This document shows positions 38,399-47,627 of a stretch of DNA of 64,000 nt, in pieces (position 1 is the first letter of the stretch; every line of letters begins with the position of its first letter). The translations under genes were made by a program, and so were the position numbers. Below the pieces are notes generated by a model, which did not search any database, had not been told where the DNA came from, and worked only from the letters and a program-made list of their open reading frames with translations. The DNA comes from Methanoregula sp. (GTDB taxonomy: Archaea > Halobacteriota > Methanomicrobia > Methanomicrobiales > Methanospirillaceae). The stretch covers positions 1,364,001-1,428,000 of the forward strand of contig CP112999.1 in the NCBI GenBank assembly GCA_026625165.1. The letters run 5' to 3'.

Positions 38399-39832
38399 AT
38401 GTTGCAGGGGATTATACGGATCAGCACCCTTGAATGGGAAGTGCCCCTCGGATTTGTACCGGGAATGCGGGTTCCTGGGCGCTTTTTCCTTTCGGAATCG
38501 CTTGAAAAAATACTTGAGCCGGGCGCAGTCCAGCAGCTTGCCAATGTTGCGACGCTGCCGGGAATTATAAAAAATTCCCTCGCGATGCCTGACATCCACT
38601 GGGGGTATGGTTTCCCGATTGGCGGGGTCGCCGCATTCGACCTCACGGAAGGCGTTATTTCGCCGGGTGGTGTCGGGTTTGATATCAATTGCGGGGTCCG
38701 GTTGCTCGCCACCCCCCTCGCTCAAAAAGATGTCGCGGGAAGAAAAGACTTAATCGAGACCCTCTTCCATGCTGTTCCGACAGGTGTGGGCGCAAAAAGC
38801 GCGCAAAAGGTGACAGGTCACGTTCTTGAGCAGATGATGGTCAAAGGCGCCCGCTGGGCGGTTGATGCGGGGTTGGGGGAGGAAAACGATCTTTTGCGCT
38901 GCGAGGAAGGGGGGTACATGAAGGAGGCAAACATAAAAGAGGTCTCTTCCAAAGCAAAACAGCGTGGCATCCCCCAAGGAGGTACACTGGGATCCGGCAA
39001 CCACTTTCTTGAACTGCAGGTCGTGCGCGAGATCTATGATGAGAATTCAGCCAAAGCGTTCGGCCTTTATCAGGATCAGGTCTGCTGCATGATCCACTGC
39101 GGCTCCCGCGGCCTCGGTCACCAGACATGTACGGACCATATCAGAATACTTGAGGGTGCTGTCAAAAAATACCAGATTAAATTACCGGACCGCCAGCTTG
39201 CGTGCGCCCCCATCAGCTCACCGGAAGGAGAAGCATATTTCGGGGCCATGGCAGCATCGGCAAATTATGCCTGGGCAAACCGCCAGTTGATCACGCATAC
39301 CACAAGAAATGTCCTTAAAAAAATGTTTGGCACCGGGTATGAGGAAATGCCCCTTGTTTACGATGTGGCCCATAACGTGGCAAAGATCGAAGAGCACATT
39401 GTTTTTGGGAGAAAGGAAAGGGTCTGCGTTCACCGGAAGGGAGCTACACGTTCATTCGGCCCGCATGCACCGGATATCCCCCCGGAACTCTCATCCATAG
39501 GACAACCCGTCATCATTCCCGGTAGTATGGGAACCTCTTCATTCGTCCTGCGCGGGACTCAAGGGGCAATGGAACAGACATTCGGGAGCACCTGCCATGG
39601 TGCCGGCAGGGTGATGAGCCGGACACAGGCAAAAAAGAGATTATCCGGAAAAGATGTGGCGGCCAGGCTCGCCCTGCAGGGAATTCTTGTAAAAGCTCCC
39701 AATGAAGCTGCAATCGCTGACGAAGCACCCGAGGTGTATAAACCAAGTGAAGACGTTGTCCGGGTGGTGCACGATGCCGGGCTCTCCCTGCTCGTCGCCC
39801 GCCTTGATCCTCTCGGGGTGATCAAGGGGTGA
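38399..39832 (+). CDS. rtcB: RNA-splicing ligase RtcB
   Basis: A 477-residue RtcB, which joins 2',3'-cyclic phosphate and 5'-OH RNA ends with GTP, as in tRNA splicing. This suits the intron-containing tRNA at 47694. Catalytic segments are PDIHWGYGFPIGGVAAFD, GFDINCGVRLL (metal-binding Cys), GSGNHFLELQ, HCGSRGLGHQ and, toward the end, GSMGTSSFVLRG with the guanylylated His in the following TCHGAGR. Full length for the family. It overlaps the next gene by 4 bases. Confidence 0.94.
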   Translation: MLQGIIRISTLEWEVPLGFVPGMRVPGRFFLSESLEKILEPGAVQQLANVATLPGIIKNSLAMPDIHWGYGFPIGGVAAFDLTEGVISPGGVGFDINCGVRLLATPLAQKDVAGRKDLIETLFHAVPTGVGAKSAQKVTGHVLEQMMVKGARWAVDAGLGEENDLLRCEEGGYMKEANIKEVSSKAKQRGIPQGGTLGSGNHFLELQVVREIYDENSAKAFGLYQDQVCCMIHCGSRGLGHQTCTDHIRILEGAVKKYQIKLPDRQLACAPISSPEGEAYFGAMAASANYAWANRQLITHTTRNVLKKMFGTGYEEMPLVYDVAHNVAKIEEHIVFGRKERVCVHRKGATRSFGPHAPDIPPELSSIGQPVIIPGSMGTSSFVLRGTQGAMEQTFGSTCHGAGRVMSRTQAKKRLSGKDVAARLALQGILVKAPNEAAIADEAPEVYKPSEDVVRVVHDAGLSLLVARLDPLGVIKG

Positions 39833-40404
39833 ACGTACGGGCAGGTTTTGTATGGGAGACACGGCAGCACTTCACAAGATTTATTGAGGACTGTGGGATC
39901 GTATGCGAAGTCGTCACCCCGCACATACTCGCCGCTCCATTTTATCGCGGTTCATTCAACTGCCTCATCGTCCCAACGGGTTTTGGAAACCCGAACTACT
40001 CAAAACTCCTGCCTGCCCTGCGTGCGGCTGCACCCCGTATACAAAGATTTCTGGAGAACGGCGGGAACCTGCTGGTCTATGGTGCAGCTATTGAAAATCC
40101 ATCTGCGTATGACTGGCTCCCGTTTCCGGTAACATACCATCATGAATGCCACCCGAGAAAGATTGTGTGCATACCTGACAGCATTGCAGAGGCCATTGTT
40201 GAGGATTACAATGCTGACCGCGTTGAATGCGATGGATTTTTCCCCGAATATGACGGTGAAGCCGCGGGAATGGGGGGAGAGCAGGCTGTTGTAATTGAAA
40301 AACAGGTCGGAAAAGGGCAGGTCGTGGTAACCAGTATCCACGAATTCCCCTCAAAAAAATTTCTCGACAGGTTCTGCCGTTTGGGAACGCAAACTTTATT
40401 CTAG
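39829..40404 (+). CDS. Unknown protein with glutamine-amidotransferase-like look
   Basis: A 191-residue protein starting at GTG 39829 inside the rtcB stop. It begins with a strand-helix unit, then VPTGFGNPNYSKLLPAL, and FLENGGNLLVYGAA, a phrase reminiscent of ThuA or class I amidotransferase-like flavodoxin folds. The latter half includes a DGEAAGMGGEQAVVIEKQVGKGQVVV strand-turn-strand and a C-terminal helix. There is no catalytic Cys at the nucleophile elbow that I can identify, so an enzymatic role is unsupported. Coupling to rtcB suggests an RNA-related role, by context only. Confidence 0.6.
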   Translation: MNVRAGFVWETRQHFTRFIEDCGIVCEVVTPHILAAPFYRGSFNCLIVPTGFGNPNYSKLLPALRAAAPRIQRFLENGGNLLVYGAAIENPSAYDWLPFPVTYHHECHPRKIVCIPDSIAEAIVEDYNADRVECDGFFPEYDGEAAGMGGEQAVVIEKQVGKGQVVVTSIHEFPSKKFLDRFCRLGTQTLF

Positions 40405-40438
40405 ATGGACAGTGACCAGAAGTATGAGGAAGACATTA

Positions 40439-40861
40439 ATGCACCGCTATACCCTTTCTGCCAGCGCCGGGGCAGATGACCTGGAACCTGTTGCCAATGC
40501 CATCCATGAATTGCTCAACCGACTTCCGGTGACTGCAAAGTCCCGGGATAAACCGGGCATCCGGGTTGAGGAGGGCAGGGTGGTTGACCGGGACTATACC
40601 GGACCTGTGCTTGAGGATGCAATCCGTGCCAACAAGATGATAAAGACCACCCCGGCATCCGGGGCTTACAAAGGGGTTCCGGTGACCGTAACCCCTTTCA
40701 GGGATTGTGATGGGGCAGCGATAGGCGCAATCGGTGTTGTTGATATTACCGGGATCTTTGACCTGGCAACCCTCATGGAGCACCAGTCTGCGATTCTCAA
40801 GCAGGTCTGCGGTAAGGATCCCTGCCCCCTGCCATCAGAATCCATCGGAGCTAAGAGGTGA
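40439..40861 (+). CDS. DUF2111 family protein
   Basis: A 140-residue protein of DUF2111, known from methanogens. Segments DKPGIRVEEGRVVDRDYTGPVLE, then YKGVPVTVTPFRDCDGAAIGAIGVVDIT suggest a PAS/GAF-like sensor fold. I chose ATG 40439 because GAGGA lies 8 bases upstream; in-frame starts at 40424 and 40412 exist. The 3' end carries the ribosome site for birA. Confidence 0.72.
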   Translation: MHRYTLSASAGADDLEPVANAIHELLNRLPVTAKSRDKPGIRVEEGRVVDRDYTGPVLEDAIRANKMIKTTPASGAYKGVPVTVTPFRDCDGAAIGAIGVVDITGIFDLATLMEHQSAILKQVCGKDPCPLPSESIGAKR

Positions 40862-40866
40862 AACGG

Positions 40867-41847
40867 ATGCCGGACTCTGCATTTAAGGTGCTGGAAATCC
40901 TTGAACGGGCAAATCGTCCGCTGTCAGGCGAGGCAATGAGCAACGAACTGGGTATCACCCGGTCAGCAGTCTGGAAGCATATCAATGAGCTCAGGGCGAT
41001 GGGATACGACATATCATCCTCACAGAAGGAAGGGTACCGCCTTACCCGGACCAGCAGCAGACTCCTCCCTTACGAGATACACAAGAAGCTCAGGACGAAG
41101 TTCGTCGGAAAAACAATGCGGTACCTGGAAAATACCCCCTCGACGATATGGGTCGGCAAACAGATCTGTTCAGAAGGGGATGTGGAGAAGATGCATGGCC
41201 TTGTCATCATTGCCGAAGAGCAGACCGGCGGGATTGGCAGGCTGGGACGCGCATGGGTCTCTCCCGTCGGTGGCATCTGGATCACAATCGTACTGAAGCC
41301 CAATATCCCCATTGACCATGTTTTTATGGTTACTATGGCCGGATCTGTTGCTGTTGCCCGTGCAATTCGAAAAGAATTCGATCTTGGCGCCCTGATCAAA
41401 TGGCCAAACGATATTTTCATCGGCGACAAGAAAGTAGCGGGCCTACACCTCGAACTCTCGGCTGAAGCAGATCTCATTCATAACTGCCTGCTGAGTATCG
41501 GGATTGATGTCAATGTCCCGCTTAACCAGTTCTCACCATCTCTCCAGAAAGATATCACATCGATCAGCGCCGAAGTCGGCCATGAGGTCGATCGCGCTTC
41601 ATTCCTTGCACGAATCCTGCGGGAGTTTGAGACCCGCTACCTGCTCATCGAGAGCGGTGAATATGAAACCATACTCCGGGAATGGAAAAGCCTTTCCTGC
41701 ACGCTCGAGCACCGCGTCCAGATCACCACTTTAAAGAACAGCTTTGAGGGGGAAGCAATTGATATTGACGAATTTGGCGCACTCATCATACGCAAGGACA
41801 ACGGCAGGATAGAGCGGGTCATTGCCGGGGATTGTCACCAGCGGTAA
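40867..41847 (+). CDS. birA: Biotin-protein ligase with N-terminal HTH (BirA)
   Basis: A 326-residue bifunctional BirA. A winged helix-turn-helix (about residues 5-60; LSGEAMSNELGITRSAVWKHINELRAMGYDI) precedes the ligase domain with GGIGRLGRAWVSPVGGIW and the catalytic IKWPNDIFIGDKKVAG, and a small C-terminal domain. It makes biotinyl-AMP, biotinylates the carrier lysine of pyruvate carboxylase and probably represses the adjacent bioY operon. I chose ATG 40867 because GAGGTG lies 6 bases upstream; GTG 40858 is possible. Confidence 0.92.
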   Translation: MPDSAFKVLEILERANRPLSGEAMSNELGITRSAVWKHINELRAMGYDISSSQKEGYRLTRTSSRLLPYEIHKKLRTKFVGKTMRYLENTPSTIWVGKQICSEGDVEKMHGLVIIAEEQTGGIGRLGRAWVSPVGGIWITIVLKPNIPIDHVFMVTMAGSVAVARAIRKEFDLGALIKWPNDIFIGDKKVAGLHLELSAEADLIHNCLLSIGIDVNVPLNQFSPSLQKDITSISAEVGHEVDRASFLARILREFETRYLLIESGEYETILREWKSLSCTLEHRVQITTLKNSFEGEAIDIDEFGALIIRKDNGRIERVIAGDCHQR

Positions 41848-41863
41848 GGACAGATTGTTTTTT

Positions 41864-41897
41864 ATCGTAAACCATATAATTTTTTATGGTTGACGAT
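41864..41897 (+). promoter_or_regulatory. BirA-type operator over the bioY promoter
   Basis: ATCGTAAACCAT (41864-41875) and ATGGTTGACGAT (41886-41897) are inverted repeats matching at 11 of 12 positions. Their inner part reads TCGTAAACC-N14-GGTTGACGA, very close to the published BirA signal TTGTAAACC-N14/15-GGTTTACAA. The spacer holds the AT-rich TATA-like ATATAATTTTTTA, and the right arm runs into the bioY start codon, so bound repressor would block both promoter access and the start. Confidence 0.75.
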
Positions 41898-42405
41898 GTT
41901 CGGTGATCTCAAAAGAACCAGACTTATCGCATATTCAGCTGCATTTGTCGGCCTGATCGCTTTGGGAAGCTGGATCTCGATCCCGTTCTTTCCGGTTCCT
42001 GTTACACTCCAGACACTCTTTGTCCTCCTCGCCGCTGCCGTCATGAAGCGCAATGCTGTCATACCGGTCACCTTATTTGTGTTGCTCGGATCTCTGGGGT
42101 TGCCGGTTTTTCACAATGGCGTTGCCGGAATCGGGGTTCTTCTCGGCCCGACCGGGGGGTACCTCATCGGTTTCATCCCCGCAGCTTTTCTGACCGGGCT
42201 GGCATATGAACAGACCCGGATGACGATCCGCGTTCTTGGGATCATTGCCGGAACGATCGTAATATATATTTTCGGGCTTTCGTGGCTGATGTACTCAACC
42301 GGCATGAGCCTTATACCTGCAGTCACCGTGGGTATGCTCCCGTTTCTTGCAGGAGATGCCATCAAAGCGTTTGCAGCGTACCAGATTGCAGAAAGACTCC
42401 CATGA
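41896..42405 (+). CDS. bioY: Biotin transporter S component BioY
   Basis: A 169-residue membrane protein with about six helices. FVGLIALGSWISIPFFPVPVTLQTLFVLL and the GLPVFHNGVAGIGVLLGPTGGYLIGF block are the BioY signature for biotin binding. It is the substrate-specific subunit of an ECF-type importer. The ATG at 41896 sits inside the BirA operator, and its stop overlaps the ATPase gene (ATGA). Confidence 0.93.
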   Translation: MFGDLKRTRLIAYSAAFVGLIALGSWISIPFFPVPVTLQTLFVLLAAAVMKRNAVIPVTLFVLLGSLGLPVFHNGVAGIGVLLGPTGGYLIGFIPAAFLTGLAYEQTRMTIRVLGIIAGTIVIYIFGLSWLMYSTGMSLIPAVTVGMLPFLAGDAIKAFAAYQIAERLP

Positions 42406-43073
42406 TTGAAATTGATTCTCTCTCCCACAGGACGCTTTTCATCGACCACCTTTCAGTCCATCCGGGATTAACATTCCTGGTCGGGGGGAACGGGGGTGGA
42501 AAAACAACCCTGCTGCGCCTCCTCTCCGGCATCGATGAACCTGAATCCGGAACCATCAGCATTGATGGACAATCCCCAAGAAAAGTTGATGTAGGATGGG
42601 TTAACGAATACCCGGACAGAAGCCTCCTTTTTTCAAGAGTTTACGATGAGATCGCTTCAACGATCCAGTTCCGGAACACTCCCTGTGATGAGACGGGCAA
42701 AATGGTGAAGGATATCTGCGGCAGGATGGGGATTACAAATCTCCTTGACCGCCCGGTGCATGAACTTTCAGGAGGGGAAAGAGCTCTTGCTGCAATTGCA
42801 GCCGCACTGGTTAACGAGCCTGTGCTGCTCGTTCTTGATGAATATGACTCCCATCTTGATCCCGGCCGCTGCCGGCAGATCGATGATATCATCGGGACCA
42901 TACAGTCACGCTATGTCATCCGCTGCACACAGCAGATGGAAACCGCAGCAAAAGGTGATCAGGTTGTTGCCATTCATGATGGACGAATTGTATCAGCCGG
43001 AAAGCCGGCTGAAGTTTTTTTCAGCCTGATGAACACGCCGTTTTACCCGCGCTCATGGAGGAAAACCGGTTGA
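42402..43073 (+). CDS. ECF transporter ATPase (EcfA/BioM-like)
   Basis: A 223-residue ABC ATPase: Walker A GGNGGGKTT, signature LSGGERALAAIAA, Walker B LLVLDEYDSHL. The Glu after Walker B is present. It energises biotin uptake with the second ATPase and EcfT encoded downstream. I chose ATG 42402, which overlaps the bioY stop; the frame extends 40 codons upstream without homology. Confidence 0.9.
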   Translation: MIEIDSLSHRTLFIDHLSVHPGLTFLVGGNGGGKTTLLRLLSGIDEPESGTISIDGQSPRKVDVGWVNEYPDRSLLFSRVYDEIASTIQFRNTPCDETGKMVKDICGRMGITNLLDRPVHELSGGERALAAIAAALVNEPVLLVLDEYDSHLDPGRCRQIDDIIGTIQSRYVIRCTQQMETAAKGDQVVAIHDGRIVSAGKPAEVFFSLMNTPFYPRSWRKTG

Positions 43074-43714
43074 ACATTCAGCTCGACAAGGTAAAAGTGA
43101 AACGCGGTCTTTTGGCTCTCAGTGCCCAAGGGAATTTCTGTGAGGGGATGCATCTGGTCCGCGGCCCTGTTGGATCGGGAAAGTCGACGCTTGCCCTTGT
43201 CATGGCCGGGCTCATCTCACCTCTTGAGGGTACAATAGATCGTAAGGATATCACGTCCTGTATGCTCTCTCTCCAGTTCCCGGAATACCACATTACCGGC
43301 CAGACACTTGCAGAGGAATGCAGATCATGGGGGCTGGAACCGGATCTGCTCCTTTCTGCAGAAGGTTTCTTGAGAAAAAGCGGGGAGAATCCCTTAAAAC
43401 TCAGCCGGGGCGAACTGAAGCGGCTTCATCTTGCCTGTGTGCTGGCAAAAAGGTATGACCTGCTGCTTCTCGATGAACCATTCAGCGCACTGGACTGCTG
43501 TCAGAAAGAGATCTTCTGCAAACGGCTCTCCGGATCTTGTGATGGGATCACTATCATCTTCACGCACGAACAGGAGATTCTCCCCCCTATTGACAGGTTC
43601 TGGGGGATCCGGGACGGGATGCTTGCGGATCTGGGGAAACAACCGTCAACAACCGGATCACATGATGTCACACGAAGAATTGAGGGAAAATCCGGGGATC
43701 CCGAAGATGAATGA
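43070..43714 (+). CDS. Second ECF transporter ATPase
   Basis: A 214-residue ABC ATPase: Walker A GPVGSGKST, signature LSRGELKRLHLAC, Walker B LLLLDEPFSAL. It is shorter than typical EcfA and has a variant signature (LSRGE for LSGGE). I chose TTG 43070, which overlaps the previous stop and has GGAGG 8 bases upstream; ATG 43055 would add five residues. It presumably forms a heterodimer with the ATPase just upstream. Confidence 0.86.
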   Translation: MNIQLDKVKVKRGLLALSAQGNFCEGMHLVRGPVGSGKSTLALVMAGLISPLEGTIDRKDITSCMLSLQFPEYHITGQTLAEECRSWGLEPDLLLSAEGFLRKSGENPLKLSRGELKRLHLACVLAKRYDLLLLDEPFSALDCCQKEIFCKRLSGSCDGITIIFTHEQEILPPIDRFWGIRDGMLADLGKQPSTTGSHDVTRRIEGKSGDPEDE

Positions 43715-44360
43715 TATTAGGATCCGGATCGGCACTGCGGCAATCCTCTCTCTTGCTGCATTCCTTAACCTCACAGGTGCATTTGTTGTTTTTATCTGGT
43801 GGCTGATCTTCATCCCTCGTCTAAAAGCTATGCCGCACATATCTGTTATGGCCGGCTTTGCAGCTATGATCGGGGTTGTAGCGGCCGTGCTCCAGATTAC
43901 AACTGGTACCGGCATCTCTTATGGCATTCGTATGGCAGTGATTCTCCTTATTGCGATGTGGCTCTGGTCTGAGCAACGGCCGGGGGAGTTTTTCTCCCTT
44001 GGCGTCTGGCTGTTCGGGTGCCGATGGGGATTTGAGATGGGAATGGTTGCCGAGCTCTGTATGCAGGCATTTGATGCATTGGTCTGCGATCTCGATCGGT
44101 TGAGAACAGCATGGGCACTCAAAGGAGTAAAAGTGGGAGTCCGCCATCTTGCTACTGCTGGTATGATTCTGGTAACCGGTGCACTGGCGCGTGCAAAGGA
44201 TACCGCAGAACTTCTCGCTGTCAGGGGATACCGGTATGGAGGATCGTTCTGCCCCTCCTTTGATACGTCTAGTGCAGATATTATTGGATGTGCCGGAGCA
44301 GTCATAGCCGGTGCGATTGCGATCATTCCAGTTAGTGAATTTTTTATACTTCCATGGTGA
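43707..44360 (+). CDS. ECF transporter transmembrane subunit (EcfT/BioN-like)
   Basis: A 217-residue membrane protein with about five helices. The cytoplasmic loop DRLRTAWALKGV and AKDTAELLAVRGYR are the two Ala-Arg-Gly-type coupling helices that contact the ATPases. It completes the biotin importer. I chose ATG 43707, overlapping the preceding gene by 8 bases; earlier in-frame codons have no support. Confidence 0.85.
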   Translation: MNDIRIRIGTAAILSLAAFLNLTGAFVVFIWWLIFIPRLKAMPHISVMAGFAAMIGVVAAVLQITTGTGISYGIRMAVILLIAMWLWSEQRPGEFFSLGVWLFGCRWGFEMGMVAELCMQAFDALVCDLDRLRTAWALKGVKVGVRHLATAGMILVTGALARAKDTAELLAVRGYRYGGSFCPSFDTSSADIIGCAGAVIAGAIAIIPVSEFFILPW

Positions 44361-44412: not shown

Positions 44413-46155
44413 ATGCGCGCTGCCTATCCTGATAAAGTTCATATTACCGATACGACACTCAGGGACGCGCACCAGTCCCTGATTGCAACACGGCTCAGAA
44501 CTGAGGATATGATCCAAATGGCCCGTGCTATTGATGGGTGCGGGTTCTTTTCCGTTGAAGCATGGGGAGGTGCCACTTTTGACACCTGCATACGGTTTTT
44601 AAATGATGACCCGTGGGAACGCCTCCGCTCGCTCAAATCCGAATTGAAACATACCCCGATCCAGATGCTTCTGCGTGGCCAGAACTTAGTCGGTTACCGG
44701 CACTATCCGGATGATGTTGTCGACCGGTTTGTCCATGCAGCGCACAAGAACGGCGTTGACATCTTCCGCGTATTCGATGCGCTTAATGATATCCGGAACA
44801 TGAAACGCTCGATGGAACAGGTCAAAAAAACAGGCGCCCACCTGCAGGGAGCAATTTGCTATACGACGAGCCCGGTCCACAGCACCAAAACCTTCATCGA
44901 AATGGCAATGGAACTCCACGCACTCGACTGCGATTCGATCTGCATCAAGGATATGGCCGGCCTGATCATGCCGGAAGCAGCGCGCGAGCTTATCTCCGGT
45001 ATTAAAGAGGCGGTTGATACCAAAGTCGACCTCCACAGCCACTGCACGAGCGGGATCGCGCCGATCAGCTACCAGGCAGCGATCGAAGCAGGTGTAGATA
45101 TTCTTGATACGGCAATGTCCCCGTTTTCCATGGGGACTTCCCAGCCCCCGACTGAAAGCGTTGTTGCATCACTAAAAGGGACAAAAAGAGATACCGGCAT
45201 AGACCTAATCAGGCTCCGGACAGTTCGCAATATCTGCCTCCAGATCCGGGAAAAATATGGTGCACTCTGTGACCCGATATCAGAGCGCGTGGACAGCGAT
45301 GTGCTCATTTACCAGTTGCCCGGGGGGATGATCTCAAACCTTGTTTCACAGCTCAAGGAGCAGGACGCTCTCAACCGGATGGACGAAGTTCTTGCAGAGA
45401 TCCCGCGTGTGCGAGAGGATCTCGGGTATCCTCCGCTCGTGACACCGACCAGCCAGATCGTAGGATCGCAGGCAGTCTTCAATGTCCTTGTCAACGGCCA
45501 GCGGTACAGGAATGTCACAAAGGAAGTCAAGGACTATGTCCATGGCCTGTACGGAAAATCACCTGCGACGGTCAGCGATGAGATCCGGAAACTGATTATC
45601 GGAAATGACGAGGTGATCGCGATCCGTCCTGCTGATCTGCTCGAACCTATCTATGAGAAGATGAAAGAAGAGGCCCAAAAAGCCGGCCTGGTAAAAAAAG
45701 AGGAGGATGTACTGACCTACATCCTCTATCCTGCAATAGCACCCGCTTTTTTGAAAGGGGAGAAACAAGGTGAAATTATCCCCAAAAAACAACAGGTATC
45801 AGCCGGAACGCCGGAAATGCCAAACCAGATGGAAGTTGAAGTGGACGGCGAGGTCTTTTCAATCCGAATCATTTCCGTCGGAGGAAGCCGGGTGGAGGTA
45901 TCGGCTTCCGCCCCGCAACAAAAAATACCGAGGGGAGATGTTGCAGGGGGTATCAAGAGCAACATGCAGGGCATGGTACTCAAGGTCATGGTCAGCCGGG
46001 ACTCTCCTGTCAAAAAAGGTGATGTCGTTGTTGTGCTTGAGGCGATGAAGATGGAAAACCCCATCCACAGCCCCATTGACGGCAGGGTGACTGAAATCTT
46101 TGTTGATACCGGCGATGTCGTCTCGAGCGGTGACGTCCTGCTGGTGGTGCAATGA
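44413..46155 (+). CDS. pycB: Pyruvate carboxylase subunit B (carboxyltransferase with biotin carrier)
   Basis: A 580-residue protein. The carboxyltransferase TIM barrel starts with TDTTLRDAHQSLIATR and includes LHSHCTSGIAP (metal) and DTAMSPFSMGTSQPPTE. A PYC/OADA domain and linker follow, then the biotinyl domain with the modified Lys in EAMKMENPI (about residue 545). It transfers CO2 from biotin to pyruvate, giving oxaloacetate for biosynthesis. It stands 52 bases after the biotin transporter operon and overlaps pycA by 4 bases. Confidence 0.94.
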   Translation: MRAAYPDKVHITDTTLRDAHQSLIATRLRTEDMIQMARAIDGCGFFSVEAWGGATFDTCIRFLNDDPWERLRSLKSELKHTPIQMLLRGQNLVGYRHYPDDVVDRFVHAAHKNGVDIFRVFDALNDIRNMKRSMEQVKKTGAHLQGAICYTTSPVHSTKTFIEMAMELHALDCDSICIKDMAGLIMPEAARELISGIKEAVDTKVDLHSHCTSGIAPISYQAAIEAGVDILDTAMSPFSMGTSQPPTESVVASLKGTKRDTGIDLIRLRTVRNICLQIREKYGALCDPISERVDSDVLIYQLPGGMISNLVSQLKEQDALNRMDEVLAEIPRVREDLGYPPLVTPTSQIVGSQAVFNVLVNGQRYRNVTKEVKDYVHGLYGKSPATVSDEIRKLIIGNDEVIAIRPADLLEPIYEKMKEEAQKAGLVKKEEDVLTYILYPAIAPAFLKGEKQGEIIPKKQQVSAGTPEMPNQMEVEVDGEVFSIRIISVGGSRVEVSASAPQQKIPRGDVAGGIKSNMQGMVLKVMVSRDSPVKKGDVVVVLEAMKMENPIHSPIDGRVTEIFVDTGDVVSSGDVLLVVQ

Positions 46156-47627
46156 AATATTTCGAGAAGATCCTGATTGCAAACCGGGCCGAGATTGCAA
46201 TCCGTGTGATGCGTGCATGCCGTGAACTCGGAATAGAAACGGTTGCGATTTATTCCGACGCGGATAAAAACGCGCTCCATGTAAAATATGCTGATGAGGC
46301 ATTCCATGTCGGGGAGGCGCATCCCTCAAAAAGTTACCTGAACATGGAACGGATTATTGATATAGCGCACAAATCCGGGTCAGAGGGTGTGCACCCGGGG
46401 TATGGTTTTCTTGCCGAGAACCACAGGTTCGCAGGTTTGTGTGAAAAAGAGGGAATTGTCTTTATCGGACCGTCCTCAAAGACCATCGAGATGATGGGTT
46501 CTAAGCTTGGCAGTAAACACCTAATGGAGTCCTCGGGTGTTCCTGTGCTCCCCTATACCCCCGAAGGCGTCGCATCTGCAGAAAAAGCAGGCGCTATCGC
46601 TGATCGGATCGGTTATCCTGTCATTGTGAAAGCCAGTGCAGGCGGAGGGGGGATCGGCATGCAGATTGTCGAGGACCCTACAGCCCTCCAGGATGCCATT
46701 GACAAAGGCATGCGCACCGCGAAATCCGCTTTTGGAGACCCGACGGTGTTTCTTGAAAAATATCTTGTGAAGCCCCGACACATCGAGTTCCAGGTCCTTG
46801 CCGATGCTCATGGCAACCGCATCCACCTCTTTGACCGGGAATGTTCAATCCAGCGCCGCCACCAGAAACTTGTCGAAGAAGCACCCTGCCCCATCATGAC
46901 AGCGGAACTTCGGGAACAGATGGCGTCATCCGCACTTACCGTAGCAAGGGTGTCAGGTTACACAAATGCAGGGACGGTCGAATTCCTGTACTCAAACGGG
47001 AAGTATTATTTTATGGAAATGAACACCCGTCTTCAGGTCGAACATACCATCACGGAAATGATCACCGGTGTTGATATTGTCCATAAGCAGCTCGCCATCG
47101 CCTCCGGTGAAGACCTTCCTTATGCGCAGGAGGACATCAGCATCCGCGGGCATGCAATCGAGTGCCGGATCAATGCTGAAAACCCCCTCAATAACTTTGC
47201 TGCCGATCCCGGTAAGATCCTCCGCTACCGGTCGCCGGGAGGGCCCGGCATACGTATTGACAGCGGGATCCATATGGGGTATTCGATCCCGCCAAACTAC
47301 GACTCGATGATCGCAAAACTATGCGCATGGCACGCAACCCGGTCCGGGGCGATCAGGCGGATGCGGAGGGCGATTTCCGAGTACGTCATCCTCGGGGTAA
47401 AAACAACGATTCCGCTCCACTATGCAATAATGAATAATGCGGAGTATATAGCAGGGAATACCCATACCCACTTCCTCCAGGAAGAGCATATCGCAAAAAC
47501 ACTCGAACGATACCAGCGCGATGAGGAGGCAAGGATGCAGACACTTGCGGGTTCATTTGAACAGGGGAAGAAGATCGCTGCAATCTCAACTGCCGTGAAT
47601 GTGTATCTTCAGGGCAAAAAGCAATAA
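46152..47627 (+). CDS. pycA: Pyruvate carboxylase subunit A (biotin carboxylase)
   Basis: A 491-residue ATP-grasp biotin carboxylase. It opens with EKILIANRAEIAIRVMRACRE, has the glycine-rich loop KASAGGGGIGM, the HRHQKLVEEAP-like QRRHQKLVEEAP and the MNTRLQVEHTITE metal-binding block. It carboxylates the biotin on PycB with ATP and bicarbonate. Full length; a possible terminator (poly-A/T-rich) follows before tRNA-Met. Confidence 0.95.
   Translation: MKYFEKILIANRAEIAIRVMRACRELGIETVAIYSDADKNALHVKYADEAFHVGEAHPSKSYLNMERIIDIAHKSGSEGVHPGYGFLAENHRFAGLCEKEGIVFIGPSSKTIEMMGSKLGSKHLMESSGVPVLPYTPEGVASAEKAGAIADRIGYPVIVKASAGGGGIGMQIVEDPTALQDAIDKGMRTAKSAFGDPTVFLEKYLVKPRHIEFQVLADAHGNRIHLFDRECSIQRRHQKLVEEAPCPIMTAELREQMASSALTVARVSGYTNAGTVEFLYSNGKYYFMEMNTRLQVEHTITEMITGVDIVHKQLAIASGEDLPYAQEDISIRGHAIECRINAENPLNNFAADPGKILRYRSPGGPGIRIDSGIHMGYSIPPNYDSMIAKLCAWHATRSGAIRRMRRAISEYVILGVKTTIPLHYAIMNNAEYIAGNTHTHFLQEEHIAKTLERYQRDEEARMQTLAGSFEQGKKIAAISTAVNVYLQGKKQ

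Follow-up and report, generated by a model that had tools for sequence, protein, structure and literature searches.

Is the inverted repeat that separates birA from bioY in a methanogen genome an operator of the neighbouring BirA? We considered this question for a stretch of 64,000 nucleotides of Methanoregula sp. (GenBank assembly GCA_026625165.1, contig CP112999.1, positions 1,364,001 to 1,428,000 of the forward strand; hereafter the window, whose own numbering is used throughout), in which the repeat occupies positions 41864-41897. Judged from sequence and comparative analysis, it appears to be an operator at which BirA represses the bioYMN biotin-uptake operon, a reading to which we assign a probability of roughly 0.88.

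A conserved palindrome between birA and bioY

The elements concerned are the following:

41864-41897 (no strand): predicted BirA operator, ATCGTAAACCAT-N10-ATGGTTGACGAT (sequence, genome match count, conservation, weight matrix)
41865-41873 (+): left half-site, TCGTAAACC (sequence, weight matrix)
41888-41896 (-): right half-site, GGTTGACGA on the + strand (sequence, weight matrix)
41896-42405 (+): bioY, S component of biotin uptake (PF02632; start backed by a conserved ATG position)

The two arms, ATCGTAAACCAT (41864-41875) and ATGGTTGACGAT (41886-41897), are complementary at 11 of 12 positions, and the core half-sites within them are separated by 14 nt. The palindrome begins 17 nt downstream of birA, whose stop codon is at 41845-41847, and ends within the bioY ATG (41896-41898), the final A of the core operator being the A of that codon. 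Inverted half-sites of the GTNAACC type at a spacing of 14-15 nt characterize BirA operators, and this arrangement is present. When the own genome (2,174,862 bp) was searched with TCGTAAACC-N10-18-GGTTGACGA, the site was the single match, and the reversed control gave 0. An earlier note, made from the sequence alone, had described a palindrome near the known BirA signal just after birA, and these counts bear it out. With TYGTNAACC-N14-GGTTNACRA and up to 3 mismatches, the same genome yielded 12 matches versus 13 for the reversed control; the bioY site has 0 mismatches and the next best has 2, and thus the bioY site alone stands out. As this search gave no additional target above the control, we take a single target as the reading for the window's genome.

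BioY was detected in 216 of the 232 Methanomicrobiales genomes, and the pattern TYGTMAACC-N13-16-GGTTKACRA occurs in 78 of the 232, compared to 0 of 232 for its reversed control. We scored the regions upstream of bioY in 106 genomes, employing a weight matrix derived from 85 different bioY sites of all loci, and set aside the 18 genomes that had been picked through a pattern match. The 88 that remained had mostly been fetched after the strict pattern failed in the genome, and otherwise by BioY score, so that the result, an operator before bioY in 66 of 88, is not inflated by pattern choice. Among the other 22, G169 has unread bases at the site and an intact right half-site, and is therefore not counted as a loss; the remaining 21 belong to genera g3, g4, g6, g13, g21, g22, g23 and g31. 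The earlier note had staked its proposal on finding the palindrome before bioY in relatives, and in most of the genomes examined it is conserved there. Half-sites across relatives are mostly TCGTCAACC or TTGTCAACC, with the arms retained while spacers and flanks vary among sites. The palindrome is thus confirmed as real and as more than chance.

In the 559,761 nt of fetched loci, which were collected around these same genes and partly overlap, 145 sites scored at least 15: 109 at bioY, 35 at the gene for phosphoenolpyruvate (PEP) carboxylase, and one just past birA, where the contig ends and cuts bioY off. Shuffled sequence gave 2 such sites in 2.8 Mb. Exact sites in families f4 and f6 lie, in all 63 cases, at bioY (50) or PEP carboxylase (13), as placed by coordinate comparison, a few of them (e.g. 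G063, G074, G106) by nearness to birA or pycB alone. Four loci of genera g27 and g29 (L018, L026, L096, L219) carry two tandem operators before bioY, about 40 nt apart, an arrangement that perhaps allows cooperative binding or serves two promoters.

In the lineages without the site, the gap between birA and bioY is only 4-21 nt in 17 of the 21 genomes, as opposed to at least 35 nt in site-bearing genomes with a measured gap. The promoter gap has probably closed in these 17 genomes, with bioY read from the birA promoter. Twelve loci of such lineages were also scanned for an operator at other positions, and nothing convincing emerged (best score 8.8, spacing 13, in G129).

Outside the order, a looser pattern matches 56 of 392 genomes across the phylum, Methanomicrobiales included, and also yields a few matches in the reversed control. 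Five loci of families f8 and f14 were read, and in each the site precedes bioY or bioB (bioB in L217 was named by us from its sequence, and in L215 a short frame stands between site and bioY), and at none of the five is it found at PEP carboxylase. The site is therefore conserved at the promoter of a biotin uptake or synthesis gene both within the order and in other families.

Loss of the site and BirA helix-turn-helix residues

The candidate binder is encoded immediately upstream:

40858-41847 (+): birA, biotin protein ligase with an N-terminal helix-turn-helix (HTH), group II (PF08279, PF03099, PF02237; PDB relatives 6apw and 1bia; TIGR00121)
40882-41040 (+): BirA HTH domain, residues 9-61 counted from GTG (PF08279; residues S23, E25, R35, W39, K40)

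As the earlier note had stated, BirA keeps its DNA-binding domain: the HTH matches PF08279 with an E-value of 1.7e-14 and 53.8 bits, above the cut-off of 25. The ligase domain matches PF03099 (E 9.4e-18) together with PF02237, and TIGR00121 scores 172 bits versus a cut-off of 83.1, as expected for a group II ligase. The E. coli BirA structure 1bia is a sequence relative (E 3.1e-23). Residue numbers are counted from GTG; an in-frame ATG also lies at 40867.

Residues S23, E25, R35, W39 and K40 are all intact in 64 of the 68 genomes with a bioY site and in 0 of 19 without one, the 19 being the 21 described above minus two without a usable BirA row; S23 and E25 are both kept in 0 of the 19. The presence of the site thus tracks the BirA HTH, through few independent events. 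In G056, where Q replaces R35, a degraded site is kept (score 13.9). Overall HTH versus ligase identity was too weak a gauge of HTH decay, and residue states were used instead. In genus g25 (L094, L095, L190-L192) the half-site is shifted to TTGTTAACC alongside an altered HTH recognition helix, and most genomes of this genus carry a second BirA-like gene.

A number of points weigh against a direct link between this BirA and the palindrome. The five residues were selected after viewing the sequence alignment, and 4 of the 68 site-bearing genomes lack one or more of them. On a tree of the ligase domain, no more than about four losses are independent; the site label needs four changes, of which two are forced by well-supported branches, and the independent pairs agree with the HTH residues under almost every pairing and are too few for significance. 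In addition, the profile for the biotin operon repressor domain, TIGR00122, matches with an E-value of 4.8e-15 and 55.2 bits, under its curated cut-off of 70. Taking both sides together, sequence comparison indicates that BirA is very probably the binder of the palindrome.

PEP carboxylase as a second site-bearing gene in relatives

In genus g11, six genomes have an exact site that is not at bioY and precedes the gene for an archaeal-type PEP carboxylase. This enzyme yields the same product as pyruvate carboxylase, oxaloacetate, and is biotin-free, whereas pyruvate carboxylase needs biotin. PF14010 is matched above its cut-off in 56 of the 232 genomes, and in none of the window's genus. Fifty-four of the 56 were examined, G202 (5' end cut) and G130 (broken) being left out, and 33 of them have the operator before PEP carboxylase (loci among L129-L134 and L139-L188), mostly 42-85 nt ahead of the start and farther away in two (G083, G062); in G062 a second copy of the gene is also preceded by an operator. 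The 21 without it comprise all nine genomes of g13, all eleven of g31, and G079, in which no operator was found in 1.5 kb upstream of the gene. Both genes could be read in 35 genomes, and the operator is present at both in 22, at neither in 13 and at one only in none. Since the 13 fall in two lineages, they represent two events and not thirteen; genera g13 and g31 lack the operator at bioY and at PEP carboxylase alike.

Of the 232 genomes, 215 have a pyruvate carboxylase gene (PF02436), which lies about 3.4 kb behind bioY where coordinates were compared. The window's genome has pyruvate carboxylase and, by PF14010, no PEP carboxylase, and its BirA regulon probably consists of bioYMN alone. From the position of the sites we infer a biotin-sparing BirA regulon in the Methanomicrobiales relatives.

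Promoter layout, regulation and rival readings

The position of the promoter can be approached from base composition, which suggests one further element:

41857-41864 (+): T-run, candidate TATA box for bioY (conserved A/T ahead of the operator, 82 distinct bioY sites)

In those 82 sites the seven bases ahead of the operator are 71-88% A/T, with 84-97% A/T at the centre of the spacer. Many genomes of f1 and f3 have a T-run directly ahead of TCGTCAACC, and in these families the position of the bioY ATG relative to the operator is also conserved. A TATA box within the spacer was considered as well; it would put the start of transcription inside bioY, and thus the T-run upstream is the better candidate. 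A spacer TATA would suit the PEP carboxylase of genus g11, whose spacer contains AAAAATAAATA. The TATA box therefore probably abuts the operator rather than lying inside it, and the operator would cover the transcription start and the start codon. The earlier note had the palindrome covering both the TATA box and the start codon of bioY: the second part stands, with the operator ending in the ATG, and the first is probably wrong, the likelier TATA box lying just upstream, at 41857-41864. The overlap that it proposed with the promoter of the uptake operon agrees with the place of the palindrome between birA and bioY and with its conservation before bioY in relatives.

By analogy with E. coli and B. 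subtilis, BirA would make biotinyl-5'-AMP and dimerize when biotin is sufficient; the N-terminal winged HTH domains of the dimer would bind the two half-sites and, by covering the region from TATA box to start codon, block RNA polymerase. When biotin is scarce, or when apo-pyruvate carboxylase drains biotinyl-AMP, BirA would leave and uptake would rise. Most relatives with a PEP carboxylase have this type of operator before its gene too, and in them a shortage of biotin would also switch on the biotin-free route to oxaloacetate. A dependence on the co-repressor has a precedent in B. subtilis, whose BirA requires both biotin and ATP for operator binding (PMC4016012).

Three other explanations of the palindrome were weighed. 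It could be the operator of another regulator that governs bioY and PEP carboxylase, the BirA HTH doing something else or nothing; a few genomes without the site (G129, G132, G206, G202) do retain the R..WK recognition residues. We regard this as unlikely, since the site resembles the known BirA signal, adjoins birA in most genomes, precedes bioB or bioY in other families, and vanishes together with S23 and E25. More improbable still is that the inverted repeat works at the RNA level, as a hairpin hiding the bioY start codon, and not as a DNA operator. Read from the sequence, the arms would indeed pair in RNA and take in the first two bases of the ATG; however, the PEP carboxylase element mostly stands well before the start of its gene, and the arm letters themselves are conserved, beyond mere pairing, around a fixed spacer of 14-15 nt. 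As for chance, isolated short palindromes are frequent in every genome, but the excess over the reversed control and the recurrence at the same place before bioY across families refute it, and we give it almost no weight.

The genes that follow bioY are these:

42402-43073 (+): ECF-type (energy-coupling factor) ATPase of the uptake operon (PF00005; TIGR04520 below its cut-off)
43055-43714 (+): second ECF-type ATPase (PF00005)
43707-44360 (+): probable bioN/EcfT transmembrane component (position and relatives; no Pfam or NCBIfam match)
44413-46155 (+): pycB, pyruvate carboxylase subunit B with biotin domain (NF006761, PF02436, PF00364)
46152-47627 (+): pycA, biotin carboxylase subunit (domain profiles)

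BirA probably has PycB as its substrate. Where bioN ends (44330-44360), a T-rich stretch that is nearly identical in the window, L032 and L033 is perhaps a separate promoter of pycBA; pyruvate carboxylase could still be co-regulated through read-through from bioYMN. Ahead of birA, a DUF2111 protein (40412-40861; PF09884, an archaeal family of unknown function) overlaps its start, and the small protein two genes ahead (39829-40404) has a weak match, below cut-off, to PF09825, the N-terminal domain of eukaryotic-type biotin protein ligase (E 0.00072).

The system resembles E. coli BirA and bioO in pairing a ligase carrying an N-terminal HTH with a palindrome of the TTGTAAACC-N14-GGTTTACAA type. 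It differs in its half-sites, mostly TCGTCAACC or TTGTCAACC, and in its target, an uptake gene with an archaeal promoter and an operator over the start codon, whereas bioO controls divergent synthesis genes. In 2002 Rodionov, Mironov and Gelfand reportedly predicted a BirA regulon in bacteria and archaea, as their title has it; bioY is said to be among the targets, site presence to track the HTH domain, and biotin-dependent carboxylases to be treated as possible targets. The window's site is, by its sequence, a putative BirA operator of a kind already predicted for archaea. Closer in target gene is Lactococcus lactis, whose BirA binds to a palindromic site within the promoter of bioY (PMC4861984); the promoter there is bacterial, and the summary of that work notes no PEP carboxylase target. 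In Corynebacterium glutamicum the biotin level shifts use between biotin-dependent pyruvate carboxylase and biotin-free PEP carboxylase (PMC11457263), and this work, as summarized, deals with disruptants and with how pyruvate carboxylase is biotinylated rather than with an operator upstream of the gene for PEP carboxylase. A search of titles and abstract beginnings, with few subscription papers, found none among the papers listed on BirA control of PEP carboxylase or on a methanogen BirA operator, and the PEP carboxylase branch is new with respect to this mainly open-access literature.

We consider it reasonably probable, from the sites and their distribution, that Methanomicrobiales BirA acts as a biotin-sparing switch. 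One operator type would repress both bioY and the biotin-free PEP carboxylase, and biotin shortage would bring on import and reroute oxaloacetate synthesis from pyruvate carboxylase to PEP carboxylase; lineages with an eroded HTH would have lost both operators together, and the organism of the window would represent a reduced, one-target form. The window itself is predicted to hold a methanogen vitamin circuit of one site and one operon, whose regulator and target lie side by side, in a group whose genomes carry biotin uptake almost throughout and in which the lineages without operators provide a natural control. If true, the operator of a vitamin-sensing ligase before the vitamin-free substitute of its own substrate enzyme would be the counterpart, for a vitamin, of metal-sparing switches.
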